Assembly: GCA_017446745.1 (NCBI GenBank)
Contig: JAFSQF010000035.1
Coordinates: 1 to 56,143, forward strand
DNA from: Bacteroidales bacterium
GTDB taxonomy: Bacteria > Bacteroidota > Bacteroidia > Bacteroidales > P3
DNA length: 56,143 nucleotides
Reading direction: 5' to 3'
Each line of letters opens with the position of its first letter. Position 1 is the stretch's first letter. The notes beneath the pieces are model-generated. The model was not told the origin of the DNA. It did not search any database and worked only from the letters and a program-made list of their open reading frames with translations. The position numbers and the translations under genes are program-made. This document shows positions 26,882-45,797 of this stretch, piece after piece.

Positions 26882-26933
26882 TGGGTTAATGCGTTTTTTT
26901 TATTATTAAATTATTTTCTTTATTTTTTTTCTC

Positions 26934-27032: not shown

Positions 27033-27051
27033 AGTTTTTGTTATTTCAGAA

Positions 27052-27372: not shown

Positions 27373-27379
27373 GGTTTGA

Positions 27380-27482
27380 TTTGATGATTAGTTATTTTTG
27401 TTATTTTGATTTTATTTATTTCGATGTTTCGATTTTATTTCGATGTTTCGATTTTTCGTTATTTAGATGTTTCGATTTTTCT
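27380..27482. repeat. GATGTTTC octamer tract, ftsL-rsmH spacer
   Basis: Units of TTTCGATGTTTCGATT with ATTT-rich interruptions between rsmH and ftsL. Confidence 0.75.
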
Positions 27483-27493
27483 TTTTCGCTCTT

Positions 27494-28429
27494 TTATATT
27501 TTCTCTGCCACCCTCAGTTTTGCGCTTCTTGCGCGGTTGTTCTCCGCCAGCTCTGTTTCAGATGCTGTTATTGGCTTGCGGCTCACCACCTTCAGTGGCA
27601 CTTGCGGCACTCCGTAGAAGTCTTTCTCCACTATTCCGTCGAAATTGCCGGCACGGAAAAAGTTCTTCACCAGTCTGTCTTCAAGTGAGTGATAGCTCAT
27701 GACGCAGAGCCTGCCTCCAGGGTTGAGCATCTCAGAGGCTTGTTGCAGCATTTGGCGGAGCGCTTCGAGCTCGCCGTTGAGTTCAATGCGGAGGGCTTGG
27801 AAAAGCATAGCCAATGTTTTGTTCTCGCGTCCGCGCGGCAGGAGGTGCTCTACGGCGGCACGCAGTTGGGAGGTGGTTTCGATGGGAGCTGTGTCGCGTG
27901 CCGCAACAATGGCTTGTGCCATGTGGTGTGCGTTTGGCAACTCGCCGTACAGCCGCAATATAGACTCCAGGTCGTCGGGAGAGGCGTTGTTCACTAGGTC
28001 GGCAGCCGTTAGGCCGTCCTGGCGGTCCATGCGCAGGTCTAAGGGGCCGTCGAAGCGTGTGGAGAAGCCGCGCTGGGCATCGTCGATCTGATGGCTTGAG
28101 ATGCCCAGGTCGGCGAGCAGGCCGTCGATGTGGCGCACGCCGTGAAGGCGCAGGAAGTTGCGCAAGTGCATGAAATTCTCATGTATCAGACAGAAGCGGG
28201 GGTCGTTGATGGCGTTGGCGTTGGCGTCGCTGTCGCGGTCGAAGGCATAGAGCCGTCCCGCCTCGCCGAGGTGAGCCAGGATGGCACGCGAATGACCGCC
28301 GCCACCGAAAGTGACGTCGACATACACGCCGCCGGGACGGATGTTTAATCCCTCCAAGCACTCGGCCAACATCACGGGCCTATGGTATGCGCTTGCTGTT
28401 GATAATATGACTTCAGGATTCTGCTTCAT
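27494..28429 (-). CDS. rsmH: 16S rRNA (cytosine-1402-N4)-methyltransferase RsmH (MraW)
   Basis: Methylates N4 of C1402 in the ribosomal P site with S-adenosylmethionine. RPVMLAECLEGLNIRPGGVY leads into the SAM loop VDVTFGGGGHSRAIL. GLLADLGISSHQIDDAQRGFS and GGRLCVMSYHSLEDRLVKNFF are family signatures. 311 residues, normal. Its start overlaps the end of mraZ by 17 bp, the usual tight mraZ-rsmH arrangement. Identification certain. Confidence 0.98.
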   Translation of the reverse strand: MKQNPEVILSTASAYHRPVMLAECLEGLNIRPGGVYVDVTFGGGGHSRAILAHLGEAGRLYAFDRDSDANANAINDPRFCLIHENFMHLRNFLRLHGVRHIDGLLADLGISSHQIDDAQRGFSTRFDGPLDLRMDRQDGLTAADLVNNASPDDLESILRLYGELPNAHHMAQAIVAARDTAPIETTSQLRAAVEHLLPRGRENKTLAMLFQALRIELNGELEALRQMLQQASEMLNPGGRLCVMSYHSLEDRLVKNFFRAGNFDGIVEKDFYGVPQVPLKVVSRKPITASETELAENNRARSAKLRVAEKI

Positions 28430-31702: not shown

Positions 31703-31764
31703 TTAATGATTCTGGAGTTTACGCGGGCTTGCGTTAAATAGGCCATCTTTTTTTTGTTTTTTGT

Positions 31765-32375
31765 TATTACTGTCCGCTAAAAAATAGAGCGTACAAATAA
31801 TAGGGCTGTCATGTAAGATGGAGGACAGGGAGCAGGTGGTGGTTTTCCGCAAGGATGGAATCAGCCATATCGCACGCATCATCACATACGTGGACTTCAA
31901 GAAAGGCAAGACGCCAAAGCTCATATCGCTACTCACCAACGATTTCGATATTCCGATGGAGACCATAGTGGACATCTGCCGCAGAAGATGGCAGATAGAA
32001 TCGTTCTTCAAGCAGATAAAGCAGAACTTTCCGCTGCGATACTTCTATGGCGAGAGCGTCAATGCCATTAAAATCCAGATATGGGTCACTCTGATTGCGA
32101 ATCTCCTGTTGTCCCTGCTGCAGAGTTCCCTTGAGCGCAACTGGAGTTTCTCCGGCCTTGCAACCATGGTCAGGATTGAACTGATGTACTACCTCAACCT
32201 GCAGACCTTCTTCAACCAGCCTGATGCAGACCTTAAAATCATGCTGGCCGAGGCTTCGGAAGAAGCACCGCCCGGAAACACCTCAACTGAGCAGGGGGGC
32301 TGAAACATGATAGCGTCTTTATTATAACATTCAGACTATTATCTGTTACACATTATTGTTTAGCGGACAGTAATA
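31765..32375 (+). mobile_element. Internally deleted IS4-type element, left copy
   Basis: 611 bp with terminal inverted repeats TATTACTGTCCGCTAAA and TTTAGCGGACAGTAATA. It contains the 3' part of a transposase gene only. The same deletion structure is found in the right copy, 91 percent or so alike by eye, which implies the shortened form moved or was duplicated after the deletion. Confidence 0.85.
31818..32303 (+). pseudogene. IS4-family transposase, C-terminal fragment
   Basis: 161 codons from an internal ATG. It carries the C-terminal DDE region with the family motif around the catalytic Glu (DICRRRWQIESFFKQIKQNF) and a downstream helical part (IQIWVTLIANLLLSLLQSSL). The N-terminal half with the two catalytic Asp residues is missing, so no transposition activity is expected. 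IS4 family assignment is from the Y/R-E-K-type motif and sequence feel; the exact IS cannot be named without a search. Confidence 0.85.
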
Positions 32376-32384
32376 ATTAAATTG

Positions 32385-32420
32385 AAAAAAGTTGACTCGG
32401 GAAGGGGAGTCAACTTTTTT
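32385..32420 (-). terminator. Terminator of the tubulin-like operon
   Basis: Perfect 14-bp arms AAAAAAGTTGACTC / GAGTCAACTTTTTT with an 8-nt loop, ending in a T-run on either strand. It follows the last gene of the operon by about 35 bp and lies 9 bp from the left IS copy. Confidence 0.9.
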
Positions 32421-32454
32421 CAGGAAATGTAGTCTGTCTCGAACGTCGGCTTGG

Positions 32455-33822
32455 CTATTCGCCTTCCATCATCATTATCTCGTCGCCGAGCCAAATCATT
32501 TCGGCCGCCTGATTGTTTTCGGGGTCCTTGATATAGCAGCGGCATTCGGAGGCTTCGACATCGATGGTGTTGTAGTCGCCGTCTATCTCGGTGCTGGCCA
32601 GGGGCTGCAGGTTGGTGTTGTCGTAGATTTGGAAATAGGTGTGCTGGTTTTCACGTGTTATGGTGTAGGTCACCATTTCGCAGAAGTTGAGGTCGATGAT
32701 GTCCTTGCCTTCGTCGGGAGTGTACTTTGTCAGGTGCGTGCCGTCGAAGCAGTAGTAAAGTGGGTTGGCATCGTTGCGTTTCATAATCCAGCAGCCGCTG
32801 TTTTCTTCGCTTGTGAAAATGGTGTAGTAGCCTGGCAGGACTTCTTGCTCGTCTAGGACGGTTCCGTCCTGGTTGCAGGCTTGCAGGAAGGTGCCTTTGC
32901 TGTCGTTGGCGATAACGTACAGCACGCCGCCGCTGAAGCCGTAGTCGATCAGTTCCATGTTCAGATTCTGCTTTGCATAGGACTGCACAAGGCTTTTGTT
33001 GGTAGACTGGTTGCCGGCCCAGTTGTTGGCGCATTGCGACCACAGGCCGGAGTGGGTCATCTGGCGTGGCGAGGATTTTGCTGACGATTTCGTCGGGAGC
33101 ATCTTCATCACGCTGTTTTTGAGCGGTGAGTAGACGAAATTAGAAGCTCTTGGTTGCGACATAGCTGCGGCTGCAGAGGCGGAACTGTTGTTGACGGCTG
33201 TGCCTGATGTGCTGGCTTTGGTCGCGGTCAAGTAGTTTTGGGTTCTCTGTTTCAGCCTTTCTCTTGAATGGTTGATGTTGGCCGTTGCGGTACGGGTTCT
33301 CTGTTTCAGCCTTTCTCCTGAATGGTTGATGTTGGCCGTTGCGGTACGGGTTGTTGCTTGCGAAGGGCTGCTTGCGGTTTGGCTTTGCTGTTTGCTGCTA
33401 AAGGTGCGGCTGCTGGTTTTCTGGGAGGAACGCGAGCTGTTGTAGCCTGTGTCGGTGTTCCGCTGTTTCGGGCTCGTTGCGGTGCTTCGGCTTGTCGAGA
33501 AACTGTTGTTGTGCGATGTTTTCGGGGCCGACGAGTTGTTCCTGCTGGAGGAATATAACGAGGAACTTCTTGGGGATGAATTCCTTGAGGATGAAAACGA
33601 GCTGGATTTGCTGCTGCTCGACGATTTGCTGCTTTTGTTGCTGCTTGACGATTTACTGCTGCTTGACGAGGATCTTGTTTTACTTGTGCTGCTCTTGTTG
33701 CTGCTTGACGACGAGAAGGAGCCGGAGCGGCTTTTGCTGAATTTGTCGTTTTGGGCGTATGCGGCAGATGTGGAGATCGCGATGCATACGAGAATTGTGA
33801 ACAAGAATCTGATTTTTTTCAT
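32455..33822 (-). CDS. Exported Ser-rich protein with a globular C-terminus (455 aa)
   Basis: Signal peptide MKKIRFLFTILVCIAISTSAAYA, then a low-complexity Ser/Lys/Thr/Arg region (residues about 25-160) dominated by Ser runs, a tandem duplication of an 18-residue segment (RTATANINHSGERLKQRT), and a C-terminal domain of about 200 residues with aromatic-rich beta-type segments (GVLYVIANDSKGTFLQA, GYYTIFTSEENSGCWIM, YYCFDGTHLTKYTPDEGKD). Probably periplasmic or surface exposed; the Ser-rich part could span the wall or be glycosylated. Last gene of the tubulin-like operon, 29 bp after the barrel gene. I do not recognise the family. Confidence 0.85.
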   Translation of the reverse strand: MKKIRFLFTILVCIAISTSAAYAQNDKFSKSRSGSFSSSSSNKSSTSKTRSSSSSSKSSSSNKSSKSSSSSKSSSFSSSRNSSPRSSSLYSSSRNNSSAPKTSHNNSFSTSRSTATSPKQRNTDTGYNSSRSSQKTSSRTFSSKQQSQTASSPSQATTRTATANINHSGERLKQRTRTATANINHSRERLKQRTQNYLTATKASTSGTAVNNSSASAAAAMSQPRASNFVYSPLKNSVMKMLPTKSSAKSSPRQMTHSGLWSQCANNWAGNQSTNKSLVQSYAKQNLNMELIDYGFSGGVLYVIANDSKGTFLQACNQDGTVLDEQEVLPGYYTIFTSEENSGCWIMKRNDANPLYYCFDGTHLTKYTPDEGKDIIDLNFCEMVTYTITRENQHTYFQIYDNTNLQPLASTEIDGDYNTIDVEASECRCYIKDPENNQAAEMIWLGDEIMMMEGE

Positions 33823-33851
33823 TTTGATTTTGGTGTTTGATTGTTAATTAA

Positions 33852-35093
33852 TTAAAACAGATACCAACGGAATCCGACGCCTCCGGCGAATCCGCCTATG
33901 GTTTTGTCTAAAATGCGTACTGTGAGATAGAGGTCGAACCGTTCTTCGCGGTAGCCGGCGACGATTTTGACGCTGTTGCCTGTCGATTGGGCCTTTGCCG
34001 TCGTGTTGTCGGCCGATGTTTTGCCAAAGGTCAGCAAGGATATTTCTCCGCCCAGTCCGACAAACAGGGATTCGTCGAAGTTAAGTCGTATTTCGGGTGC
34101 GAGGTGCAGGTTGGGTTTGAGGAAGGAACCTACGGAAGTTCCCACGCCGAGGAGGCCGTTGACTGTGTTGTGTGGACGTCCGATGCGAAGCACCACATTG
34201 GCTTCGATGCCGCCGTAGAATTTGGCGGTGTCGTAGTCGACTTTGGAGCTGTCGGGCAGCGTGAGGAACGGGTCGGCTCCGACACCGATGGTCAGCAGTG
34301 ACCCGTAGGCTGCTTTTTTGCGTGGTGTGGGTGCTACGACGGGTTTGCTAGAACTGGAAGATTTCGATGTTGTTTTGGTACTGGATGATGTGTTCTGGTT
34401 GTTTCCGTTTTGCCCTTGCAGGAATTTTTTTCCTTCGGTGCGCAGTAGGTTGGAGACTGTTGCGTAATGTTCGGATTTGGGGTATTTGGTGATGAAGGTG
34501 CGGCACTGGTTGAAGGCGTCCTTGTTGGGGATGGCGGTGAAATTGTAGGTTTTTTGCTTGAGGCTGAGGTAAAGGTCGTTTTCTGCCTTGGCTGCCAGGG
34601 TGTTGTTATATATTGCCAACAGGTCGCTGGGGACATCGGTTTTCGGCACTTTTTCAATGTATTGTATGAATTTTGCCATATCGTTTGCCGCTACGGCCAT
34701 ACGGGCTTGTTCAAGGAAGTAGTCGGTGCTGTCGCTGGCGGGGATTTCGACAACCATAACGTAGGTGACGTTGCTCTGGATGGGGTCGAATTCGTGGCGC
34801 AGAGGGAGGTATTGCTTTGTTTTGACTGTGAGCCAGTTGGCACCATTCATCATATAAATAAGCCATTCGCCGTTGTTGTATTCGGTCGATAAGAAGTCGC
34901 CTTCAAACTCGGCATCGGGAATAACCAGGCCGAGTTTGATGAGTCCGCAGTTCACGCCGTTGGCGTCCTTTACGGGATTCTTGGCGGCATCGGTCATAGT
35001 CAGGTCGGCGCGGAATTCGATGATTTTCAGTTCCTGCGCATTCATTGTTATTGCGCACACAAGTGTCAGGCAAAGTAAAGCTAATTTTCTCAT
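33852..35093 (-). CDS. Exported protein with a probable outer-membrane beta-barrel C-terminus (413 aa)
   Basis: Signal peptide MRKLALLCLTLVCAITMNA. The N-terminal domain (about 20-140) has DLTMTDAAKNPVKDANGVNCGLIKL, reminiscent of periplasmic PEGA-like or carboxypeptidase-regulatory beta domains. A helical repeat segment follows (about 140-225, TFITKYPKSEHYATVSNLLR), then a Ser/Thr linker, then alternating strands (YGGIEANVVLRIGRP, FVGLGGEISLLTFGK, VKIVAGYREERFDLYLTVRI) ending in GGFAGGVGFRWYLF. The terminal aromatic and strand pattern suggest an outer-membrane barrel. It would be the outer end of an envelope-spanning assembly; this is inference. Confidence 0.85.
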   Translation of the reverse strand: MRKLALLCLTLVCAITMNAQELKIIEFRADLTMTDAAKNPVKDANGVNCGLIKLGLVIPDAEFEGDFLSTEYNNGEWLIYMMNGANWLTVKTKQYLPLRHEFDPIQSNVTYVMVVEIPASDSTDYFLEQARMAVAANDMAKFIQYIEKVPKTDVPSDLLAIYNNTLAAKAENDLYLSLKQKTYNFTAIPNKDAFNQCRTFITKYPKSEHYATVSNLLRTEGKKFLQGQNGNNQNTSSSTKTTSKSSSSSKPVVAPTPRKKAAYGSLLTIGVGADPFLTLPDSSKVDYDTAKFYGGIEANVVLRIGRPHNTVNGLLGVGTSVGSFLKPNLHLAPEIRLNFDESLFVGLGGEISLLTFGKTSADNTTAKAQSTGNSVKIVAGYREERFDLYLTVRILDKTIGGFAGGVGFRWYLF

Positions 35094-35107
35094 ATTGAAG
35101 TTTTTGC

Positions 35108-36076
35108 TTATTTCAGTTTAAAATTGCTCAGTGTGAAGATGTCGTTTTCGTCGACTTCCATAGGTTGCCAGGTGCGGACGAGGATTTGCGGGTGCAGTTC
35201 GTCGCTGAAGTCCCAGATGATGAACAGGATGCCTTCGTCGCTGTAGTTCTTTGTGAACCATCCCTGTTTGAGGGTTACTCCATAGTAGTTGGGCTTGGCA
35301 CCGTGGCGTACTATTTCGATGTCGTCGAACTTGACGTTGATATAGCTGTTGCGCGCAAAAACGCCTTTCAAGTGCTTCAGGTACTGCTGTTTTCCGTATG
35401 AGGTATATTCCACCGAGACAGGCTTGATGTCGCTATGGACACGTTTTACGACACGGCCGGTGACGATCAGTGCATCGTCGCTGAAAACGTCCTCCATAAA
35501 ATTCATATTCTTCTGTATGTATGCCATTTTGAAACGCTCGACCCACTGCAGTATCTGAATGCGGCGGTCGGCATCGTTAAGGCGCTCACCTTCGCGGATG
35601 ATGCTCATATACTGCTGCACACCCATAGTGATGTTGAAGTCGGTGATGTTTCCGCGCCGGTCGTAGTTTATGCACACTTCCTGATTGATGTCGCCGTCGT
35701 AAGAGTCGTCGAAAGGTTTCATTTCTACAGCGATGTTGCGCACCTGGTATTCGATGACGGCTCCAGTGCTCGACTTGATTTGCAGGCAGTGTTCGACGAT
35801 GTCGTCGTCGGCTATGCGGAAATGCACATTGTTCCACATCATACCGATGCTTTGCGAGGCAAGATTGTCGATGTTGATTCCGCTGTAGTTTATGTCTTTG
35901 CCACTCGATTCAGCCTGATTTATGGCGGAGAGGAGCATAGACGTGTTGCGTTCGATGTTGCTTTTAAGTGCTGGGTCTGTTACGCCGTCCGAAATTTCAA
36001 AGTTGACAGCGTCCTGGGCGTAGGCACCAAGAGTCAGGACTAAAGCCAACATATACATAATAATTCGCTTCATCAT
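35108..36076 (-). CDS. Exported protein with an NTF2/SnoaL-like C-terminal region (322 aa)
   Basis: Signal peptide MMKRIIMYMLALVLTLGAYA. The N-terminal half contains SNIERNTSMLLSAINQAESSGKDI and a beta-rich part. The C-terminal half (about 165-310), WVERFKMAYIQKNMNFMEDVFSDDALIVTGRVVK through FFIIWDFSD-like strands, looks like a cone-shaped NTF2/SnoaL fold, used in many exported proteins for binding or protein contacts. No catalytic motif is visible. Third gene from the operon end, spaced 42 and 14 bp from its neighbours. Fold call is by eye. Confidence 0.82.
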   Translation of the reverse strand: MMKRIIMYMLALVLTLGAYAQDAVNFEISDGVTDPALKSNIERNTSMLLSAINQAESSGKDINYSGINIDNLASQSIGMMWNNVHFRIADDDIVEHCLQIKSSTGAVIEYQVRNIAVEMKPFDDSYDGDINQEVCINYDRRGNITDFNITMGVQQYMSIIREGERLNDADRRIQILQWVERFKMAYIQKNMNFMEDVFSDDALIVTGRVVKRVHSDIKPVSVEYTSYGKQQYLKHLKGVFARNSYINVKFDDIEIVRHGAKPNYYGVTLKQGWFTKNYSDEGILFIIWDFSDELHPQILVRTWQPMEVDENDIFTLSNFKLK

Positions 36077-36118
36077 ATTAATTGTTAATTTATTGCTGAA
36101 AGTGTATTGGTGGTGTTT

Positions 36119-37093
36119 TTATTTTGCGAAGTTAAACCATAATGCGTTCATACCTTTGTGCGCCTCAAGCGAGGACATTGTCATTGTCCGGTAGTCGATG
36201 CGTTCGGACGTTCCGTTGCCGAGAATGGTCACTAGTTTTCCTTTTTCGTCGAATATGGCCCAAAAAGAGTTGGCTACAGACGGACAGCGGTCTACGGTGC
36301 CATAGTTTTTGATTTTGTATTCTGTCTTTAGGCGGTTAAGGCGTACACGGAAAGATGCTATGTCTCCGCATTTCAAGAGGGAATTGATTGCATCTTGTTT
36401 CCATCCGCTGAGTGGCGACACTGCTTTGTTGGCTGATTGTGTAACGGGCTCCTTTGGGGTCGGAACGGGAGTTGTTTCGATTACTGTTTTTTTTTCTGCC
36501 TCGATGGTTGGCTGGATGGTATTGGCGGCAACTGGTATGTCAATGTCTACAACTTCATCTGGCTCCATTTCTACGGCTATCTCCGATTCCGGTATGTTGA
36601 CTGTTGAATTTGCTGTTGAAACTGTGGTTGCAGAAACATTGGCGGAGTTTGATGGTTTGTCGGTGACCGATATGGCTGTGCCGCTCTTGGCATTGATAAC
36701 GGTAGTGTTGTTGACGCCTTCGATGTCGGATTTCTTGACGTATACGAAAACGCGGTACATCGTTCCACGCATCATTGTCATCGACTCGCTCTTGGTACTG
36801 ATGTTCTTGATGAGGACGTTGTCGGCATTGGTCAATTTGCGTTTGGAGGAGATGTATTCCTCGATTTGTTTCATCAACAACTCGTTTGCCACATCGCGAG
36901 CTTCGGCTTCGGTAGCCATCGTCGATTCGGCATAGATATATATCTGGTTGCGTTTAATGTTGTTGATTTCTTTTGATGTGGTTTGAGCCGGCACAACTTC
37001 TGCAAACAGAAGCATTAGGACAAGGGCCAGCAGCTTTTTTTTAGGTCCGCAGAAATGCGGCTGTATCCTTGTGGTATGGTTATTTTTCGTCAT
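36119..37093 (-). CDS. Exported protein with an N-terminal LPP20-like region (324 aa)
   Basis: A Lys-rich start (MTKNNHTTRIQPHFCGPKKK) precedes a hydrophobic signal LLALVLMLLFAEVVPAQ. The next ~110 residues (IYIYAESTMATEAEARDVANELLMKQIEEYISSKRK, then TMMRGTMYRVFVYVKKSDI) resemble the LPP20 fold of exported stress-related proteins. The middle is a Thr/Ser/Pro-rich linker, and a conserved C-terminal region (GWKQDAINSLLKCGDIASF ... LVTILGNGTSERIDYRTM) closes the protein. Its start overlaps the end of the preceding gene by 14 bp. Function unknown. Confidence 0.8.
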   Translation of the reverse strand: MTKNNHTTRIQPHFCGPKKKLLALVLMLLFAEVVPAQTTSKEINNIKRNQIYIYAESTMATEAEARDVANELLMKQIEEYISSKRKLTNADNVLIKNISTKSESMTMMRGTMYRVFVYVKKSDIEGVNNTTVINAKSGTAISVTDKPSNSANVSATTVSTANSTVNIPESEIAVEMEPDEVVDIDIPVAANTIQPTIEAEKKTVIETTPVPTPKEPVTQSANKAVSPLSGWKQDAINSLLKCGDIASFRVRLNRLKTEYKIKNYGTVDRCPSVANSFWAIFDEKGKLVTILGNGTSERIDYRTMTMSSLEAHKGMNALWFNFAK

Positions 37094-38018
37094 CTTTGAA
37101 TATGTTTTTCACGTTCGACAATGGAATATAACAGTTCATGCGGGCGTTGACCACACCTTTGTTTTCATCCAGGACGGAGGGATTGAAATTGATTTTTGCG
37201 ATATGCGTGTAGCCGAGCATCTCGTTGTGCATAAACAGTTCGCAAACAACGTTGTCTTTGTCGTTGCTGATTATGCCATAGTAGGGTGTGCATCCTTCCG
37301 AAAGGCAGTAGCCGACCAGTTGCCGGAGCGGCACGGTGAAGGTGTCGGTCTTGAAATTGTTTTTTACGAGGACCACCGATATCAGCAGGCTGTTCACTGT
37401 TTCGGTGCCTGTAAGCAGATTGGCCATCGTTTCGCAAGGGAAGTCGCTGCTGTACAGCAGGCTGTAGTGGTTGCCGTCTTTCACATAGTAGCGGTTCCCG
37501 CTGAGCTCGGGTATCAAGAATGTACTGCCTTGCAGCAGGTAGATTTTGCTTTGTCCGATTTGTTGCAGCAGTTGGTCAGGAATTTCATATTCGCTGGGCT
37601 CATCAATCGTTGCATTGCGAATGTTATGTTCGAATTCGTCTTCGGCGTCAATCATGTTGGTCCCGAGGATGAGCCTGTAGTCGGCGGGATATGATAGCGA
37701 TACCTGGTCGGTGCTGTCGTGTGTGAACTGCAGCAGGTAGCGTTTGCCGTCAGCGAGGATGATGTTCACTGCCGCTGTGGAGTCGTTGCAAAGCCTTCGG
37801 AGGTCGTCGAAACTGCCGTCGCGTAGCAATATTTTTTCGGTACGCATATAGTCGTTGAACGGCATACCGTTCACTTCTCCAAATTCGGCATACGAAGCGA
37901 GCTTGATGGCAAATTGCCTGTGCATTTCGATGTAGTCGGGCTGTGCACAAACAATTCCTGGGCCTACTGCCAAAAGCAGGCCCAGGACAAGTGTTTGTAT
38001 GTTGGTTGTCAGCTTCAT
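37080..38018 (-). CDS. Exported hypothetical protein (312 aa)
   Basis: Signal peptide MKLTTNIQTLVLGLLLAVGPGIVCA. The mature part opens with YIEMHRQFAIKLASYAEFGEVNGMPFNDYMRTEKILL and continues with mixed alpha/beta segments (YPADYRLILGTNMIDAEDEFEHNI, KIYLLQGSTFLIPELSGNRYYV). The family is not recognised. Its start is 5 bp after the zinc-ribbon/TM gene and it overlaps the next gene, so translation within this part of the operon is probably coupled. Periplasmic location expected. Confidence 0.82.
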   Translation of the reverse strand: MKLTTNIQTLVLGLLLAVGPGIVCAQPDYIEMHRQFAIKLASYAEFGEVNGMPFNDYMRTEKILLRDGSFDDLRRLCNDSTAAVNIILADGKRYLLQFTHDSTDQVSLSYPADYRLILGTNMIDAEDEFEHNIRNATIDEPSEYEIPDQLLQQIGQSKIYLLQGSTFLIPELSGNRYYVKDGNHYSLLYSSDFPCETMANLLTGTETVNSLLISVVLVKNNFKTDTFTVPLRQLVGYCLSEGCTPYYGIISNDKDNVVCELFMHNEMLGYTHIAKINFNPSVLDENKGVVNARMNCYIPLSNVKNIFKDDEK

Positions 38019-38023
38019 CAGCG

Positions 38024-38758
38024 TTAGCAGTTAAACCACTTGCGGGTGCCGTCGGCACGGTGCAGCTCACCGGCACGCAGACGGCCGTTGTCGAACTTGG
38101 TGTTCTCGATGGTTTCGCCGGAACGGACGTCGAGCTTAGAGCCGCGACCGTCTTTGAGGTCGATGCTGTAGCTGCTCTTCACTCTGATGGTGCCGCCCAC
38201 GCCGTGGGGTTTGCCACCCTGCATAGGACCGCTGTAGCTGCCCCACCCGAGATTGGTGCTGCCGCTGGCGGAGCCAGTACTGGTTTTGACCGATTTCTTT
38301 TTGGCATTGGCGATAGAGTCGGCAATGCGCTGAGCCTCTTCTGCTTGTGCGATAGAGTCGGCGATGCGCTGCTGCTCGTCCATTGCTGCCTGGTTGGCGG
38401 CGTTGACGAGGGCTATAGAGTCGGCAATGCGCTGCTCTTCAGCCTCACGCACCTGCTGGACGGAATCCTGTATGCGTTGTGCCTCAAGCATCGCTGCTTC
38501 TTTCTTCTTGTTGCTGCTCGAGATGCCCATTGCGGCACCCACGCCACCACCGATGACCACCACGGCGGCGGCGATGAGGATGATGAGTTTCTTCTTGTTT
38601 GGGTCGAGTCCGCCATTTTTTTTCGTTTCGGACACTTCCTCAAGTGGATTATGACATTCAGAGCAAACAAAATTCAGGTCGTCTGCTATCTGGATTTCCT
38701 CTTTGTCAGCCAGGCTGCAGTTGACTACATTTTTGCAAATACCTTTTTTTTCTGCCAT
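38024..38758 (-). CDS. Zinc-ribbon / transmembrane / MORN-like protein (244 aa)
   Basis: Four cysteines at 8, 14, 32 and 35 (ICKNVVNC and FVCSECHNPL) form a likely N-terminal zinc ribbon. A membrane helix follows (about 56-79, LIILIAAAVVVIGGGVGAAM), then a helical repeat region with four RIADSIA-type heptads, then a C-terminal MORN-like part (GWGSYSGPMQGGKPHGVG, LRAGELHRADGTRKWF). With an N-in orientation the ribbon would be cytoplasmic, near the tubulin-like protein encoded 13 bp upstream, and the coiled coil and MORN part periplasmic. It is therefore a candidate link between cytoplasm and envelope. Domain calls are by eye. Confidence 0.85.
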   Translation of the reverse strand: MAEKKGICKNVVNCSLADKEEIQIADDLNFVCSECHNPLEEVSETKKNGGLDPNKKKLIILIAAAVVVIGGGVGAAMGISSSNKKKEAAMLEAQRIQDSVQQVREAEEQRIADSIALVNAANQAAMDEQQRIADSIAQAEEAQRIADSIANAKKKSVKTSTGSASGSTNLGWGSYSGPMQGGKPHGVGGTIRVKSSYSIDLKDGRGSKLDVRSGETIENTKFDNGRLRAGELHRADGTRKWFNC

Positions 38759-38771
38759 TTTTCGTTGGGTT

Positions 38772-41700
38772 TTATAGTTCTTGTAAATTGTTTTTGATAA
38801 TGTCAGCCACTATGTTGGTGTAGCGCTCGTAATCTTCGTGATACTTGTCCCCGTCACACAGGCTGTTCAACACCTCGTTTTGCAATACGGCAACCAGTTT
38901 TTCTTTTATTTCTGCACGTTGGGTATTGCTGCGGGTTTCGTTCTTGAGTTTTATATCCACCTGTTGTTTGATGCGGTCTGCAATGGCTGGTTCCATACAT
39001 ACGGCATTCCACGTAAGGCCAAAATTGCTGGCTTTGCTGTGCGGTATTGGCAGGTCGTCCTCTACGCCAAGGGCATTGATGCCCCTGTAGCAGGCAAAAC
39101 GTTCGCCGGTGCTCTTGGTCTGCTCGGTTATCAAGCCGAAGGCGTAGGCCAGCATCATCACAGGCAGCATTTCGCGTTGCAGTTCCTCGACACTCTTGTT
39201 GAAAAGGGCAGGGAACGCCTTGTCGAAGTCGGCGAAACTTTCTGTGTGGAGCAGCATACGGTTGTACTCGCCGTCGGGTCCTGACACTTTGGAGTCATAC
39301 TTTTCCTTCAAGGTTGTCATATTGGCCAGATAACGCAGGGGGAATCCAGATGCGGCAGTGACCACTACAATCTCATTTTCTTTGTAGTGTACAGAGACAT
39401 CGCTTTTGGAGACGGGGTAGCCGTCGGAATTGTTGGCGAAAGCTTCGATGAGTTTTTCGCGGAATTCTTGCGTGGTACTGGTCGGTTCGGGAATTGACAA
39501 TTGTATCATCTTCATCATCTTCACGCCGTCGGCAGTCTCGGTGGGATTGAACTGCACACAGGGTTTTGCCATCTTGACCACCTGCGAGACAAATTCTTTC
39601 ATCTTTTCGTGAGTTACTAGCTCCTGCTTTAGTTTTTCGAGGATGTTGACGTTGGTCATCCGGTTGGCAGAGTCGTTGTTGGCAGTGTTTTCCATTGCAG
39701 TTTTTGCAATATTGCCGCATTCAACAAACATAGTGGTTCGGATGGTCTCATAGTCGACCGTCTTGTTCAGAAGCCCAAACGATACCTCTGCATTTTCGCC
39801 GAGCATTTCGACTAATCGGTTGCGTATGTTTTTGGCCGCTGAAGTGGTGGAGATCTGCTCGTTTTTTGATGTCATATACTGTTTGACGATGGATCGGACT
39901 TGGTTTGGGTCATACCTCTTCAGGACGGTATCGGTTTGGTCTTCTGTTGGGTTGCATTTGGAAGCGATCTCTTCCAATACGTTCTCTATAATGCTATCGA
40001 TTTGCAGGTGGCACTCTTTCACCTTTTCCTTGATGGCATTAAGGCGGAACGCTACTTCCTGAAGCAACATTTTTGCAAATCTGAGAGCTTCTGCTTCGGT
40101 AGAGCGGAAATAGTATTCTTTAAGTGCAGTCTGGAACTGGTTGAATATCTTGCCCGAAGCGCCGGTTATGGCATCCTTGAGCCAGCCAATGTTGTCGTAT
40201 TGGTCGCGTACTTCCTTCACTTTTTGCTGCAACTGTGGAAGTTTGTCGTTGGCAATGCTGGAACTGCGTTGTTCGAATTGCTTCATACGCTCTTCGCAGT
40301 TCTGAATCAGTAGCGATAGGCATTTTTCGACCTCAAGCATACTGCGAGTTCCATCCTGCCATTCTTTGAAAAGAATTGTTTCTATATGATGGCTGATGTG
40401 GTTTGCCATTCCGGACAGTTCTTTCTCCTTCTGCAGAGAGTAGAACTTGGCGACGCCGGTGCCTCGGAATTTTGATGCTTTTTCATCGATTTCGCTGTCG
40501 TAGGCTTTCCGCATCAAAGTGCTGAATTCGCGGACCCAGAGTTTTTTGTCTTGAAAGTATTTCTGCACTTTGGCAGCAAAAGCATTGGCGAAAGCCTCCC
40601 AAGTTTTTTCAAGGTTTTTCCATTTCTCGCTCGACTCGTTGCGGATAATCGGCAGAGAGAGTTTCAGGTGCTCTTCGTCTAACATATAAATGCCTAAGTC
40701 CGAGTCTTTCTGCAGTTTTTCGTAGAAGCCGCTAGCCACTTCTTCGTAGGTACATTTGCTATATCCCTGTCCTTCCACATAGTGGTTGTAAGCGATTTGC
40801 AGCGCAGCCTGCTCGGCATAGCTATAGGTGGCATATTCACGCACCTCGGTCTCGGGATAGTTTACACGAGTGATACCGAAGGTGAGGAACTGACGGCCGT
40901 GCACCTTGCGTCCGGCACGGTCTTCCTCGGCACCGACGCCCTCGTTCTCGCAGCCTACCAGTCTGGCCAATCTGCCTTGCGAGCCTACTTTTTCAGGTAC
41001 TACTATTGTCTGGAAAAGGAAGTTGGCAACCATTGTCGGCAAATCGTTCTTGATGTCAAAAATCTTGCCGGCCTCATTCACGTTGCTGTATACATAGCAG
41101 GCTTCGAAGGGCTGGACCCCCTTCAGCAGGCGGCGCACCTTGCCTGAGCCGATGTCGGGTTTGCCGCTGACGTCTACAGGGTTGTATGTCCCCACGCTGA
41201 GTGCATTCAGCTCCGAGAGGGCTGCATAGCCGTTAGCTTGATAGAATCCTCCCTTTGCAAAGTCGGGGTTGGCCACGTTGCGTTCAGGCATATATGCAAA
41301 TATTCTTATCTTGTAAGTCCAATCAACATTCAAACCTTCACCTACTTTGACGGATGGATATTCGGTGCGGATCTGGCTAACAACATCGATAATGGATCCT
41401 GATCCCGTGCCTCCTGCCAATCCGGCACAGATATGGAAAGTGATATTCTCGTCGCCACCTTTCAAATTGTGCAGTCTGGTAACGGCATTAGTCAGCACGT
41501 TATAGAAGTTGTCGGGAATGTTCTCATTGCTCATATTGTTGGCAATGAGCATTCTGCCCAGTCGGCGACGCTGGCCGCCGATGCCCGAGTTGATGAGGCT
41601 CACCATATTGCTGTCGCGCTGCAACATGGCGATTTCGTTGGGCTTTAGAAACGCTTCGACACCAGGATATTTCCTTGTGTTTGTCAACAGATCGCTGTTG

Positions 41701-41927
41701 ACACCGTGGGTGCTGGCACACTGGGTGCATTCCAATGCTACGGAATGTCCCATCACTTTCCAGGACTGACTTTCGGCAAGGTCGGCTGTAGACGAATCCA
41801 GATATATATACTCGATGTTAACTCCTTCGGGGGAATTGCTGTTGAACTCTTCGTAAATGCGTTTGCGGAATTCGCGAATAACACTTCCACCTGTACCTCC
41901 AAGGCCTATAATAAGATGATTGGACAT
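38772..41927 (-). CDS. Large tubulin/FtsZ-like GTPase (Tubulin_2 type, 1051 aa)
   Basis: N-terminal nucleotide-binding domain with a Rossmann-type opening LIIGLGGTGGSVIREF (5-20) and the tubulin signature CAGLAGGTGSGSII (167-180, GGTGSG at 172-177). This matches the large tubulin-like family (Pfam Tubulin_2), distant FtsZ relatives proposed from genome context to act in membrane remodelling. After about residue 430 a long helical, coiled-coil-rich region follows (e.g. IANDKLPQLQQKVKEVRDQYD), much longer than FtsZ, and a C-terminal alpha/beta part (YGLITEQTKSTGERFACY-like). No signal peptide or TM helix, so cytoplasmic. Polymerisation is expected but unproven. It is the core of the operon. Confidence 0.9.
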   Translation of the reverse strand: MSNHLIIGLGGTGGSVIREFRKRIYEEFNSNSPEGVNIEYIYLDSSTADLAESQSWKVMGHSVALECTQCASTHGVNSDLLTNTRKYPGVEAFLKPNEIAMLQRDSNMVSLINSGIGGQRRRLGRMLIANNMSNENIPDNFYNVLTNAVTRLHNLKGGDENITFHICAGLAGGTGSGSIIDVVSQIRTEYPSVKVGEGLNVDWTYKIRIFAYMPERNVANPDFAKGGFYQANGYAALSELNALSVGTYNPVDVSGKPDIGSGKVRRLLKGVQPFEACYVYSNVNEAGKIFDIKNDLPTMVANFLFQTIVVPEKVGSQGRLARLVGCENEGVGAEEDRAGRKVHGRQFLTFGITRVNYPETEVREYATYSYAEQAALQIAYNHYVEGQGYSKCTYEEVASGFYEKLQKDSDLGIYMLDEEHLKLSLPIIRNESSEKWKNLEKTWEAFANAFAAKVQKYFQDKKLWVREFSTLMRKAYDSEIDEKASKFRGTGVAKFYSLQKEKELSGMANHISHHIETILFKEWQDGTRSMLEVEKCLSLLIQNCEERMKQFEQRSSSIANDKLPQLQQKVKEVRDQYDNIGWLKDAITGASGKIFNQFQTALKEYYFRSTEAEALRFAKMLLQEVAFRLNAIKEKVKECHLQIDSIIENVLEEIASKCNPTEDQTDTVLKRYDPNQVRSIVKQYMTSKNEQISTTSAAKNIRNRLVEMLGENAEVSFGLLNKTVDYETIRTTMFVECGNIAKTAMENTANNDSANRMTNVNILEKLKQELVTHEKMKEFVSQVVKMAKPCVQFNPTETADGVKMMKMIQLSIPEPTSTTQEFREKLIEAFANNSDGYPVSKSDVSVHYKENEIVVVTAASGFPLRYLANMTTLKEKYDSKVSGPDGEYNRMLLHTESFADFDKAFPALFNKSVEELQREMLPVMMLAYAFGLITEQTKSTGERFACYRGINALGVEDDLPIPHSKASNFGLTWNAVCMEPAIADRIKQQVDIKLKNETRSNTQRAEIKEKLVAVLQNEVLNSLCDGDKYHEDYERYTNIVADIIKNNLQEL

Positions 41928-41987
41928 AAGCGAGAATATTTTAATTGATTAAAGATTTCGTTTTGGTGTTCTGTTGAACTTAGCAGG

Positions 41988-42536
41988 TCAAAAACCGAGG
42001 TCGTCGTCAGGGGCATTCCCGTATGCAGTGCCATAGCCGTTGTTGGATCCTCCGCCTCCGATGCTGGCGCCTACAGACATAAACGCTACGGTCAGCACCA
42101 GTGTTATGGCCATATAAAGCACTGATGTCCAGATGCGATGGCTGGCACTGCGGTTCACGGCCTGGCGGATGATGATGCTACTTTCGGCAATAGTGTGGCC
42201 CGCAAGCTCGTCAGGATCTATGTATTTTGCCACTTTTGGATATAGCAGACGGAGTCCTATTTTAACACCCGACGCGTCCTCGGGACTGAGACGATAGTTC
42301 TGCGCATCTCCAGTAATGTATGTCTGTGCGGCTTCCTGTATGGCTGCAACCGTGTTGTCGGCGTTATTGCGCGAGTCGATGGCTCTAACAAGCCGTATGC
42401 CTTCGGCAGTAAAAGCTACAAAAGCTATAACAGCAACGATATAGGTTAGTGCTGTAGGGTCTTTTTTGCTCATGGCGGTAGATAGCACGAAACAGAGTGC
42501 TGTGAGTACAATACCAACAAGTATGGCCCAGAACAT
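41988..42536 (-). CDS. Small inner-membrane protein, first gene of the tubulin-like operon (182 aa)
   Basis: Two N-terminal membrane helices (MFWAILVGIVLTALCFVL; ALTYIVAVIAFVAFTAEGI) and one near the C-terminus (TSVLYMAITLVLTVAFMSVG), followed by a Gly/Asn-rich tail ending in DDDLGF. A soluble segment of about 80 residues (NTVAAIQEAAQTYITGDAQ, YPKVAKYIDPDELAGHTIAE) lies between. The acidic tail could bind the tubulin-like protein, as FtsZ partners often do with such tails in reverse; this is speculation. It follows the repeated leader element at 42583-42850. Family not recognised. Confidence 0.82.
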   Translation of the reverse strand: MFWAILVGIVLTALCFVLSTAMSKKDPTALTYIVAVIAFVAFTAEGIRLVRAIDSRNNADNTVAAIQEAAQTYITGDAQNYRLSPEDASGVKIGLRLLYPKVAKYIDPDELAGHTIAESSIIIRQAVNRSASHRIWTSVLYMAITLVLTVAFMSVGASIGGGGSNNGYGTAYGNAPDDDLGF

Positions 42537-42582
42537 AGCTTCATACAGTTTGTCCGCTATGAGTTCTCAGTTTGCGGGGAAA

Positions 42583-42850
42583 TAAAAAAAGCATAGAACT
42601 CGCGTTGTTGATTCTACGACTTTTAGGTATCGCCAAACACCTTTCCAAAATAAAACCAACTTTGAACGTTATCCTATGCTCTGATATGCAGTGGCAGGAA
42701 GCCAATACATAGGCAGAAGCAGAAGGCATCAGTATCATAGTCCTTTGGCTAAAATTTTGGCGAATTTTAAAAGTCGGACCTATACAAATGCTTTTTTCGC
42801 ATCGCACGACTACTCGCGTCGTTTCGCGGTGCAAAGATACGCAATTTTTC
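42583..42850 (-). repeat. Repeated ~260-nt leader element, copy A (with operon promoter)
   Basis: Diverged copy of 2590-2850, placed the same way: promoter-like TATCTTTG on the minus strand (42839-42832) at its start, next gene start (42536) just after its end. It can encode a short peptide starting MILMPSA and containing LERCLAIPKSRR, comparable with MIPMLFA and LSRSLAIPS of copy B. It probably supplies the promoter and leader of the tubulin-like operon. Confidence 0.5.
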
Positions 42851-42974
42851 AAATACTAATGCCTTTTTGATAAGGTTATGTTTTATAGTTTTGATTTTTA
42901 ATAATTTGTGATTTTGATTTTTGCTTATAGTGCTGCTGTTTTTCGTGATAATTTTTCTGATAAACGATTTTTTT

Positions 42975-43594
42975 TATTACTGTCCGCTAAAAAATAGAGC
43001 GTACAAAAAGAAATAGGGCTGTCATGTAAGATGGAGGACAGGGAGCAGGTGGTGGTTTTCCGCAAGGATGGAATCAGCCATATCGCACGCATCATCACAT
43101 ACGTGGACATCAAGAAAGGCAAGACGCCAAAGCTCATATCGCTGCTCACCAACGATTTCGATATGCCGATGGAGACCATAGTGGACATCTGCCGCAGAAG
43201 ATGGTAGAGAGAATCGCTCTTCAAGCAGATAAAGCAGAACTTTCCGCTGCGATACTTCTATGGCGAGAGCGCCAATGCCATTAAAATCCAGATATGGGTC
43301 ACTCTGATTGCGAATCTCCTGTTGTCCCTGCTGCAGAGTTCCCTTGAGTGCAACTGGAGTTTCTCCGGCCTTGCGACCATGGTCAGGATTGTACTGATGT
43401 ACTACCTCAACCTGCAGACCTTCTTCAACCAGCCGGATGCAGACCTTAAAATCATGCTGGCCGAGGTCTCGGAAGAAGCACCGCCCGGAAACACCTCAAT
43501 TGAGCAGGGGGGCTTGTCTTGAAACATGATAGCGTCTTTATTATAACATTCAGACTATTATCTGTTACACATTATTGTTTAGCGGACAGTAATA
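42975..43594 (+). mobile_element. Internally deleted IS4-type element, right copy
   Basis: 620 bp with the same terminal repeats and same internal deletion as the left copy, same orientation. The transposase remnant (43031 to about 43522) has an in-frame TAG replacing a Gln codon in the RRW-Q-IES motif (near 43206) and is therefore a double ruin. Small insertions (for example AAGA near 43008) distinguish it from the left copy. Confidence 0.85.
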
Positions 43595-43608
43595 GTTTTT
43601 TGTCTTTA

Positions 43609-43660: not shown

Positions 43661-44968
43661 GTGCTGATGTTAAGTAAGCTGGGAATCAATATGATGAAGT
43701 GTTTTTTTGAGGTTCTTTTTTCGGCTTTGGAGCGTTGTGTTGTCTCCAAAGGTTATTTTTTGCTGCTTTTTTTTGCCGCCACTCCATTTGTTGCCACGGC
43801 ACAGGTTGCCGACACTGTAGCGACGGACGTTGACGTTGTTGCCGCCGCTGCTGCTCCATCCAGTCCCGATTCCGTTGTTATCCTCCGTCGTTATGTCGAC
43901 GACCTACAGCGACAGCTCGACTCCAATCAGGTGCGCCTTGCTGCGATGCATCACCGCTTTCGCGACCTGATGATGCTAAAGGATTCGCTCATTGCCATGA
44001 ACGACCTCTACCAGGCCGAGTTGCAGGAAAAGAACCGCCTGATGCAGGAGCAAAAAGCCGCCATGCAGGACAAGGAACGCCTCGTGGCCGAGAAAGAGGA
44101 GCTTTATCGTCAGGCACTTACCAACTCCACTATCGACAAGGCCAAATGGGATGGCGAAATGCGAGCCAAGGAGGCCAGCATTGAAGCCAAGACGCGCGAG
44201 ATAGCGTACCTGCAGAAGGATATCGACACCAAGGAGCAAACATTGCTGTCGCAGCGCGAGAACTACGAGCATGTCCTCACTGAGAAGGAACACTATCGCC
44301 ATCTTGTCGATTCGCTACAGCGCCGTGTCAACGCTGTAGAAATGGAGAACATTCGCAAGCAAGAAGAGAATAAATACCTGGCGCAGAAGGCCAAGGATGC
44401 CGAAGAGCGCGCTGCCATCACCCTCAACAAGAAGAAAAAAGTGCGTCCCATACAGGGTATCGCACTCCGTTTTTTCCGCACTCCCGACTGGGACATCCGC
44501 CTCACCCCGGAGAACGTGGATGGTTCTACAGTGACCTACAACAAGGTGATTCGAAACCGCAATGCCGGCGACATAGAGTTCGACTTTGTCACCGGGGCAT
44601 CGGTGATGCTCTGGGACCTCACGCGCTTCTTCGACCGTTCGCAGCGCACCGACACGGTCTCTGTGCTGCGCGACATCCCGCGCTTCGACCAGAAATTCAA
44701 CTACGACCTGGGCATCTACGTAGGCTTCGGTGGTTCCAACCTTTTCAAGAATTTCTATATAGGCCCCAGCTTCCGCTTCGTGGATTTTTTCTACCTCACT
44801 GTGGGTGTCAACATCTGCGAGTACGAGATGCTCATCGCGGGCTACACTGCCGGCCAGTCGCTTGAGCCGGTACTTACTCTCGACGACATCACCGCCAAGT
44901 CGTGGCTTGTAAAGCCTTTCATTTCCTTGTCCATCGACCTTGATTTCCTCTCATATATAAAAAAATGA
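43661..44968 (+). CDS. Exported coiled-coil protein with a probable outer-membrane C-terminus (435 aa)
   Basis: The N-terminus contains a hydrophobic export signal ending FFAATPFVATAQ; in-frame starts at 43661, 43691 and 43694 are possible, and an internal GTG would give a shorter, cleaner signal peptide. Residues about 70-265 are a long charged coiled coil (LQEKNRLMQEQKAAMQDKER, AKDAEERAAITLNKKKK). The C-terminal ~150 residues have alternating strands (YDLGIYVGFGGSNLFKN, FYIGPSFRFVDFFYLTVGVN) typical of a small barrel or beta-sandwich. Adjacent to, but outside, the composite element. Family not recognised. Confidence 0.82.
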   Translation: MLMLSKLGINMMKCFFEVLFSALERCVVSKGYFLLLFFAATPFVATAQVADTVATDVDVVAAAAAPSSPDSVVILRRYVDDLQRQLDSNQVRLAAMHHRFRDLMMLKDSLIAMNDLYQAELQEKNRLMQEQKAAMQDKERLVAEKEELYRQALTNSTIDKAKWDGEMRAKEASIEAKTREIAYLQKDIDTKEQTLLSQRENYEHVLTEKEHYRHLVDSLQRRVNAVEMENIRKQEENKYLAQKAKDAEERAAITLNKKKKVRPIQGIALRFFRTPDWDIRLTPENVDGSTVTYNKVIRNRNAGDIEFDFVTGASVMLWDLTRFFDRSQRTDTVSVLRDIPRFDQKFNYDLGIYVGFGGSNLFKNFYIGPSFRFVDFFYLTVGVNICEYEMLIAGYTAGQSLEPVLTLDDITAKSWLVKPFISLSIDLDFLSYIKK

Positions 44969-44993
44969 ATACAAGTAAGATTTCTATATTGCT

Positions 44994-45486
44994 ATTGAAC
45001 GGGATTCCCTACGGGGATGGAGAGAGGGAAGGACAGGTTTTGGCTATTGAACGGGATCCCCTACGGGGATGGAGAGAGGGATGGACAGGTTTTGGCTATT
45101 GAACGGGATCCCCTACGGGGATGGAGAGAGGGATGGACAGGTGCTGGCTATTGAACGGGATCCCCTACGGGGATGGAGAGAGGGAAGGACAGGTGCTGGC
45201 TATTGAACGGAATCCCCTACGGGGATGGAGAGAGGGATGGACAGGTTTTGGCTATTGAACGGGATCCCCTACGGGGATGGGGAGAGGGAAGGACGGGTTT
45301 TGGCTATTGAACGGGATCCCCTACGGGGATGGAGAGAGGGATGGACAGGTGCTGGCTATTGAACGGGATCCCCTATGGGGATGGAGAGATGGATGGACAG
45401 GTTTTGGCTATTGAACGGGATCCCCTACGGGGATGGAGAGAGGGAAGGACAGGTGCTGGCTATTGAACGGGATCCCCTACGGGGAT
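44994..45486. repeat. Tandem array 2: 10 copies of the 52-bp CCCCTACGGGG unit
   Basis: Nine full 52-bp units and a final 25-bp partial, each ATTGAACGGRATCCCCTACG followed by GGGATGGAGAGAGGGATGGA and CAGG(TGC/TTT)TGGCT. Only the 52-bp type of array 1 is present. Placed right after an exported-protein gene, as array 1 follows the flippase. Confidence 0.92.
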
Positions 45487-45797
45487 GTATTAAAAATTCT
45501 ATATATATAATGGTTTATAAGTATTATACACTATCGTCTGATTAATCTGCTTGATTTTTAATAAATAACATATTCGTGTTATTTCAATAAAATAACAGTT
45601 AAACATGTAAACAATTCAATTAGGTTAACAGCCAAAATTAATGTGCATTTTTTTATACATAAATTATACGTTTGTTAATGATCAATTAGATGATGGTTAT
45701 ATGTAAACTAAAAATTAGCAATTATCTAATAAACAATCTAATATAATAACATATCATTCCGCAGTATATACTCTTATAACTTTAAAATTTCAAGTTG
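45487..45797. other. AT-rich gene-free region before cysS
   Basis: No gene or clear element is visible. A weak hairpin GTTATTT/AAATAAC lies near 45577-45595. No good TTTG-N19-TAnnTTTG promoter for cysS was found by eye. Confidence 0.4.

Follow-up and report, generated by a model that had tools for sequence, protein, structure and literature searches.

We have analysed an operon on a 56,143-nucleotide contig of a Bacteroidales bacterium (hereafter the window; contig C73 in a draft genome that totals 2.79 Mb in 117 contigs and is 92% complete), in which the gene for a tubulin-like protein (tub) lies among genes for two membrane proteins and a series of exported proteins. We propose, with moderate confidence, that the operon encodes an envelope-sensing transmembrane signalling device whose two halves evolve separately and whose cytoplasmic outputs are interchangeable. 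The coupling of the inside to the outside is well supported by sequence comparison, through natural recombinants among relatives of the operon and through versions of its adaptor protein that carry a TIR or a kinase domain.

The eight open reading frames (ORFs) that an earlier note on this DNA had read as one operon were confirmed at 32455-42536 on the minus strand. They encode proteins of 182, 1051, 244, 312, 324, 322, 413 and 455 amino acids (aa), and the gaps between them (60, 13, 5, -14, 42, 14 and 29 nucleotides) agree with the spacing of -14 to +60 given in that note, as does the single terminator-like site, a 16-pair hairpin. Terminator-like sites number 15 in the region as compared with 16.8 (standard deviation 4.4) in shuffles, so it is the position of the hairpin, and that alone, which argues for termination. 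At 0.497, the G+C content of the operon falls inside the span of 0.489-0.544 given by the other 10-kb stretches of the window. The core of the operon consists of six genes, tm182, tub, the adaptor gene, exp312, exp324 and ntf322; the genes for the 413-aa barrel-like protein and the 455-aa Ser-rich protein, which the earlier note had counted with the rest, are both present and form a variable tail outside this core.

The earlier descriptions of the membrane proteins held up. Hydropathy analysis revealed three transmembrane (TM) segments in the 182-aa protein, tm182, and one in the 244-aa adaptor. In the adaptor family the four cysteines of the zinc ribbon were invariant in 14/14 members, two of which gave a weak TFIIB-type match. 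The adaptor profile matched MORN1 in the PDB at 9.4e-5, and Pfam MORN was found in six of the 14 members at E 0.05, the window member not being among them. As to the five proteins predicted to be exported, an N-terminal hydrophobic segment was found in four; the fifth, ntf322, fell below the hydropathy threshold, and its N-terminus resembles a signal peptide by eye.

The 1051-aa protein had been recognized as tubulin/FtsZ-like, and Pfam places it in Tubulin_2 (PF13809; 1.9e-50, 172.5 bits as against a curated cut-off of 27). It has the Tubulin-FtsZ glycine-rich signature loop (AGGTGSG at residue 171), which a strict pattern recovered in 18 of 20 tubulins, those of L038 and L074 having C for A. 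A 96% identical tubulin is known from a Bacteroidales metagenome-assembled genome from sheep rectum. FtsZ_C, the domain of division FtsZ, was not among the Pfam matches of the eight proteins. Neither a known division or segregation partner, which the note had already failed to see, nor a DNA-binding partner of the TubZ/RepX type was matched among them in Pfam or NCBIfam. When the PDB was searched with profiles of tub, ntf322, exp324 and exp312, no match was better than E 0.1. Viral contigs contained no relative of tub or ntf322, and phage records no relative of tub. Three relatives of tub were found in plasmid records (one over 97% of the query at 27.5% identity, two over 28-29% of it), and no relative of ntf322.

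Tubulin_2 was present in 20 of 393 Bacteroidales genomes, in 16 of them above the curated cut-off. Window-like tubulins (class I, phmmer E <= 2e-51 to the window tub, the best value among other fetched loci being 4e-7) occurred in eight of the 393 (G000, G221, G252, G385, G425, G458, G493 and G532). In class I loci the order three-TM protein, tub, adaptor, exp312, exp324, ntf322, tail recurs, with a member unrecognized or the contig ending in some. Among 120 genomes of the genus, a strong class I tub was found in 10 and an ntf322 orthologue (E < 1e-60) in 10, nine genomes having both (Fisher 9.5e-12). As exceptions, the contig of G148 ends inside exp312, and G093 has adaptor-like, exp312, exp324 and ntf322 genes and no tub. 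In the order, near-full-length ntf322, its coverage judged by reading the match table, was present in 18 of the 393 genomes, including all eight of class I (p 3.3e-12); in G385 it lies on a contig separate from tub. Co-occurrence across genomes, on which the earlier note had staked its proposal beforehand, is thus observed in both genus and order, with these exceptions.

Several irregular tubulin loci were also seen. G148 contains two class I fragments (G148:C28:70901-71180), one with an internal stop, besides its long copy on C14. L030 (G458:C25) is a second, contig-cut Tubulin_2 copy, a 606-aa frame scoring equally with the copy on C21. The tubulin frame of L051 (7438-10563) is split, by decay or assembly error, into two pieces separated by 66 bases, of which the larger alone was used, unjoined. 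A further Bacteroidales Tubulin_2 set, L046, has HSP70-like and trypsin-like genes and resembles the conflict systems of Kaur et al. discussed below; L047, L052 and L053 each have one or more genes in common with it. L048 and L050 have a gene in common, the L048 copy of which gave a weak vWA match.

Within operons that are otherwise conserved, the tubulin has been replaced. Compared with L038 and L039, the window has 71-72% identity in ntf322, and only 25-26% in the tubulin. In the ntf322 tree, L072, L074 and L038 form one clade (96/99), a grouping that is rejected for tub (log-likelihood 599 lower, approximately unbiased test p 1.3e-41). In the tub tree, L038 and L074 group with L051, and L039 with L045, each partner being from another family (100/100); these groupings are in turn rejected for ntf322 (p 1.5e-52 for L038/L074/L051 and 0.025 for L039/L045). 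A test on 13 loci rejected the window family as a single clade for tub (log-likelihood 1071 lower, p 0.0017); for ntf322 this clade was not rejected (p 0.36). The tub and ntf322 trees from which the supported clades above are taken were made without L040, L042 and L049, and both contain long branches, of which the tree program warns. The exchange is evident without trees, because L039 and L045 share 77% identity in tub and 36% in ntf322. The tubulins fall into type A (window, L034-L037, L044, L072 and L073) and type B (L038, L039, L074, L043, L045 and L051, with L040 assigned by similarity and L041 on the B side as a long branch).

The adaptor itself is a chimera, with a break between the zinc ribbon and the periplasmic end. 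L072 and L038 are 27% identical in tub and 43% in the zinc ribbon, as compared with 92% in the MORN end, 79% in exp312 and 93% in ntf322; their DNA identity is about 0.5 up to the ribbon, 0.86 at the TM segment, and, after a dip in the spacer, 0.78-0.88 in the MORN end. The reverse holds for L039 and L045, which are 77% identical in the ribbon and 23% in the MORN end. Partial Mantel tests on 16 loci (L040 and L042 being excluded, as their contigs end before ntf322) agreed with this. Ribbon distance tracked tub distance given ntf322 (0.91, p 1e-4), and MORN-end distance tracked ntf322 given tub (0.93, p 1e-4), with no link to tub given ntf322 (0.06, p 0.25); exp312 distance also tracked ntf322 (0.90). 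When the tests were confined to the window's family (ten loci), ribbon distance tracked tub (0.96) but showed no significant link to ntf322 (0.17, p 0.14), and for the MORN end neither link was significant (0.08, p 0.31; 0.24, p 0.10). On a Paraburkholderia plasmid, the 27.5% identical tub is followed by a zinc ribbon-TM protein with a TPR-type end, and no match to the exported families was found at that locus.

The C-terminal tail of tm182 follows the type of tubulin as well. Every type A locus with a recognized tm182, six in all, has a protein ending in an acidic pair or triplet plus F (DDDLGF in two, EDF in three and DDF in one); none of eight others does, and the last 14 residues were net negative in five of the six. 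In type B, the last 14 residues had a net charge of +5 or +6, without terminal F, in 7/7. The tm182 of L039 is 56-60% identical to that of the window, yet has the basic tail. L042 and L049 have no clear equivalent of the protein.

The adaptor's MORN end is also found joined to output domains other than the zinc ribbon. A profile of it (A8) matched 28 of the 393 genomes at E 0.001, 12 strongly (<= 3.5e-12) and 16 at 5.7e-6 or worse; 11 of its 16 rows come from the order set that was searched, so that their recovery is by construction. The 12 strong genomes comprise eight with a zinc ribbon adaptor and tubulin, three with a TIR adaptor and one with a kinase adaptor. Full-length ntf322 was present in 12/12 of them, and no strong adaptor was found in a genome lacking it; the associated Fisher value (7.8e-19) is inflated because the profile rows were built from the same genomes and loci. 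The TIR adaptors are those of L089 (TIR_2 at 3.5e-14, with MORN), L090 (4.6e-6, 27.6 bits as against a cut-off of 28) and L092 (7.6e-9). The adaptor of L086 is a protein kinase (4.7e-28) with AVK, HFD and DFG motifs. A hydrophobic segment separates output domain and MORN end in all four, and Tubulin_2 was not found in the genomes of these four loci. L089 reads from end to end as TIR-TM-MORN, exp312, ntf322 and a PEGA tail; L086 has exp312, exp324 and ntf322, and L090 and L092 have ntf322 and FGE genes, with exp312 unrecognized.

L108, which is similar to L089, was considered as a further TIR adaptor and rejected, since its protein has a Pfam MORN match only and a lipoprotein-like N-terminal signal; the adaptor-like proteins of L075 and L108 both have such a start and no cytoplasmic domain. 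Full-length ntf322 was also examined at 18 loci from classes of the phylum other than Bacteroidia: 14 had an exp312- or exp324-like gene nearby, and one, L108, a MORN protein. A TIR-Sel1 protein is encoded on the opposite strand beside a tubulin-free exp312/ntf322 operon at L088 (6126-7505).

Among the exported components, ntf322 is the most conserved in the window's family; its Cds6_C match (8.8e-4) is below the curated cut-off. Besides the near-full-length copies, partial matches to it were found in 31 genomes, mostly inside frames of about 600 aa. In L064, L065 and L066, exported proteins of about this length seem to fuse an exp324-like N-terminus to the NTF2-like end of ntf322. The gene after ntf322 retains a related N-terminus, and its C-terminal endings differ between loci. 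An FGE-sulfatase ending was identified by Pfam in L038 and L044 and is readable in L035, L036, L039, L072 and L074, so that FGE tails accompany both types of tubulin. PEGA repeats, accompanied or not by an Lcl_C match, form other endings (L037), and WG repeats are present in the first of two tail genes in L039. Barrel-like endings are found in the window, L034 and L073; in the 413-aa protein of the window, a barrel, as the earlier note had predicted, is suggested by the C-terminal ...RWYLF. The Ser-rich gene was recovered again only in L073 (G576; 4721-6094, 2e-101), where it adjoins a barrel-type tail, the L034 contig ending before the position of this gene. The window copy contains a 54-bp direct repeat (98%) at 33240-33347.

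Since the presumed cytoplasmic parts (the tm182 tail and the zinc ribbon) travel with the tubulin and the exported part stays, contacts may be read from co-exchange. The earlier note had proposed that a cytoplasmic tubulin-like protein is linked through inner-membrane proteins to exported ones, and the natural recombinants support this independently; they point to contacts of the zinc ribbon and tm182 tail inside, and of the MORN end with the exported proteins outside. Wherever the role of TIR and kinase domains is understood, they act as outputs, and it is for this reason that we assign the input to the exported set and the output to the cytoplasmic domain. For TIR, such a role in immunity is described in parts of a published account (PMC11312562). 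We infer physical binding, membrane topology, an outside-to-inside direction, polymerization and a purpose in envelope stress or phage defence, as follows. Outside the inner membrane, exp312, exp324, ntf322 and the variable tail protein would form a sensing complex which, judging from co-inheritance, would touch the MORN-like end of the single-pass adaptor. Inside, co-exchange suggests that the zinc ribbon of the adaptor and the C-terminal tail of tm182 would bind the tubulin-like GTPase. The output would then be a GTP-dependent assembly of the tubulin-like protein at the membrane, which a signal from the envelope may nucleate or release.

A wider proposal, which we offer only tentatively, is that these loci belong to a Bacteroidota receptor family, in which one periplasmic sensing module and a TM-MORN adaptor have been recombined with a tubulin (of at least two non-mixing types), a TIR domain or a Ser/Thr kinase; the tubulin polymer might then be an immune-type effector switched from outside the inner membrane. 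The earlier note had offered envelope remodelling, defence or surface assembly as functions. The TIR and kinase versions narrow this choice in the direction of signalling with a cytoplasmic output, for which phage defence, envelope stress and contact signalling are all candidates. The patchy distribution, the exchange of parts, the TIR versions and the mobile setting are in favour of defence.

A number of observations weigh against the signalling device or the defensive purpose. As to the break in the adaptor, it is less sharp between L072 and L074, where identity rises only at the MORN end. Ribbon distance retains a link to ntf322 given tub (0.47, p 0.003), and exp312 distance keeps a small link to tub given ntf322 (0.29, p 0.006). 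The tail motif of tm182 was defined after seeing the data. L044, of type A, ends in DDF with its last 14 residues net basic; type A loci L036 and L073 have no recognized tm182; and the three-TM protein of L041, on the B side, has neither ending and a net charge of -1, so that, with L041 counted as B, the basic rule holds in 7/8 and the acidic-F rule still in 0/8. As to co-occurrence, G576 has on its contig C2 (L076, 7737-11553) a second tub and adaptor with no exported gene recognized beside them, a fuller set lying elsewhere in the same genome (L073). Six of the 18 genomes with full-length ntf322 lack a MORN-end adaptor. The link of adaptor to ntf322 is partly built in, because it was beside ntf322 that the TIR and kinase adaptors were found. 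Because window and L034, and likewise L038 and L074, are near duplicates, the counts overstate independence. The tubulin polymer could also drive the outside part instead of responding to it. PADLOC 2.0.0 identified none of the six window proteins scanned (all except the 182- and 455-aa proteins) and none of ten chosen neighbours of class I operons, and the ratio of non-synonymous to synonymous substitution (dN/dS) in seven genes compared with L034 was 0.02-0.30, which shows no strong diversifying selection.

The alternative that fares best is one in which a membrane-bound tubulin polymer remodels or positions the envelope and in doing so moves the exported proteins; we regard it as rather unlikely. 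It is near the prediction made in 2010 for the FtsZl1 family, for which that paper drew on operons containing genes for OmpA, vWA proteins and GTPases (PMC2875224), and the conservation of the signature loop in nearly all of the tubulins accords with it. Against it, TIR and kinase domains occupy the same slot, and the exported genes exist without tubulin. We know of no TIR or kinase domain that drives a periplasmic machine. A role in surface assembly or transport, with a structure built or exported by the tail and exported proteins under regulation from the cytoplasmic part, is improbable, although the tail proteins have PEGA, FGE-sulfatase, WG and barrel-like parts, and a reviewer's comment in the 2010 paper suggested transport or signalling (PMC2875224). 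Against it, neither Pfam nor NCBIfam recognized a transporter, a secretion channel or a known assembly factor in the operon. TubZ segregates and maintains plasmids, and the position of the operon between two insertion sequence (IS) remnants with an outer 9-bp repeat might suggest that the tubulin does the same for its own mobile unit; we consider this highly improbable, as the contig carries genes like those of the division and cell wall (dcw) cluster, no DNA-binding partner was matched in Pfam or NCBIfam, the contig of the nearest copy, L034, gave no match to this IS, and the exported genes would be left without a role. That the mosaic operons are assembly chimeras of metagenome bins is barely credible: the assemblies are drafts with listed contamination of 1 to 3% (G052, G102, G130, G091, G545, G550 and G576), yet two separate exchanges (L038/L074, in two genomes, and L039) both break in frame within one gene, and the positions look alike when the alignment is inspected by eye.

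The features of the operon and its borders are listed below.

Table 1. Features of the tubulin-like operon and its flanks (coordinates in the window).
Feature	Position	Strand	Basis
tm182, 182-aa three-TM protein, C-terminus DDDLGF	41988..42536	-	ORF; TM 1-19, 29-47, 139-157
tub, 1051-aa Tubulin_2/FtsZl1 protein; loops GLGGTGG at residue 8, AGGTGSG at 171	38772..41927	-	Pfam, alignment
Adaptor, 244 aa: N-terminal zinc ribbon, TM 58-76, spacer, MORN-like end	38024..38758	-	profiles, hydropathy
Adaptor zinc ribbon, residues 1-41 as cut for Mantel tests; inherited together with tub in relatives	38636..38758	-	
Adaptor MORN-like end; inherited together with the exported genes; common to TIR/kinase adaptors	38027..38260	-	
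exp312, 312-aa exported protein, no recognized known domain	37080..38018	-	
exp324, 324-aa exported protein, no recognized known domain	36119..37093	-	
ntf322, 322-aa exported protein, weak NTF2-like (Cds6_C) match	35108..36076	-	
413-aa tail gene; N-terminal region common to PEGA/FGE tail proteins; barrel-like end; position variable	33852..35093	-	
455-aa Ser-rich exported tail gene	32455..33822	-	
Terminator-like hairpin, 16 pairs, directly after last gene	32383..32422	-	
Left IS remnant: partial transposase, terminal inverted repeats	31765..32375	+	
Right IS remnant, 96% identical to left, same orientation	42975..43594	+	
Outer 9-bp direct repeat GTTTTTTGT, left	31756..31764		
Outer 9-bp direct repeat GTTTTTTGT, right	43595..43603		

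The two IS remnants are the only copies found in this draft genome. Their outer flanks have the 9-mer GTTTTTTGT in common and their inner flanks do not (3e-5 in shuffled flanks). Such an arrangement would be expected after a composite transposon had moved as a unit, with the caveat that both remnants hold a partial transposase only and that the flank is T-rich; the transposon-like unit spans 31756-43603. Beyond the left IS and an S46 peptidase gene, genes resembling ftsW, mraY, murE, ftsI and mraW occupy 19643-28429; given the IS bracket, the closeness of these dcw-like genes to the tubulin operon is probably accidental. The flanking 435-aa gene was matched in 10 of 18 other genomes, mostly in its C-terminal part and perhaps as a paralogue. 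In nine of these ten regions (G153 omitted; two of the contigs being 10.5 and 4.7 kb), no match to the dpp7, cysS, adk, mraW or ftsI of the window was found. Between the 435-aa gene and a cysS-like gene, overlapping 237-nt copies spaced 52 bases apart (44887-45591) constitute a 52-bp tandem repeat.

The earlier note had called the system undescribed. For the tubulin this fails, because FtsZl1 was published in 2010 (PMC2875224), defined by Makarova and Koonin, with an alignment that includes a member from Bacteroides caccae; Tubulin_2 proteins are also placed in the FtsZ-like group in part of a further source (PMC9871819). For the rest it appears to stand, in that no description of this gene set, or of an adaptor common to tubulin, TIR and kinase, was found in the titles and opening abstract lines of the open-licence papers that the searches listed, nor was a later functional study of FtsZl1. 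As far as these sources go, then, the FtsZl1/Tubulin_2 family is known, while the gene set and its alternative outputs seem not to have been described.

According to passages of the 2010 paper, FtsZl1 operons carry vWA, GTPase, kinase and OmpA genes together with lineage-specific proteins, membrane remodelling is predicted, and a reviewer asked how a cytoplasmic FtsZ-like protein would work with periplasmic or outer-membrane partners (PMC2875224); the link to vWA recurs in parts of two other papers (PMC10067837, PMC5898192). The present operon resembles these in the N-terminal Tubulin_2 domain of a protein of about 1000 aa, in the GTP-binding signature and in the company of membrane and exported proteins. 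The FtsZl1 extension described there, long, C-terminal and with a coiled coil and a helical domain, is compatible with the 1051 aa of tub, compared by length alone. The operon differs in that vWA, P-loop GTPase, kinase and OmpA were unmatched among the eight proteins in Pfam and NCBIfam, vWA being in those passages a usual partner and not a defining feature; the partners here are the zinc ribbon-TM-MORN adaptor, the three-TM protein and exp312, exp324 and ntf322. Some of these genes may be included in the lineage-specific families of the 2010 paper.

The likeness to Thoeris and other TIR immunity extends to matches of ThsB models to the TIR of L089 (1.4e-9) and L090 (0.0047), with none to that of L092; what sets the present proteins apart is the hydrophobic segment and MORN end fused to the TIR, and the exported proteins encoded alongside. 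Receptor-type Ser/Thr kinases are known in bacteria, and L086 has their arrangement of a kinase, one TM segment and an extracytoplasmic part, but this part is the MORN end common to the tubulin adaptor. Kaur et al. (2020) placed tubulin-domain genes in GTPase-centred conflict systems (PMC7159879), and in passages of that work tubulin-domain proteins are proposed as multimerizing effectors, often near the membrane, and FGE-type domains are variable parts of related systems, as are the tails here. The operon differs from those systems, to which DO-GTPase and GAP1 belong, in that no GTPase was matched in it apart from the tubulin, nor fn3 or HSP70, GAP1 not having been searched for by name. The passages of the 2010 paper drawn on here give a predicted role only for FtsZl1 (PMC2875224); the TIR and kinase versions offer a first functional comparison, by which the question becomes testable.

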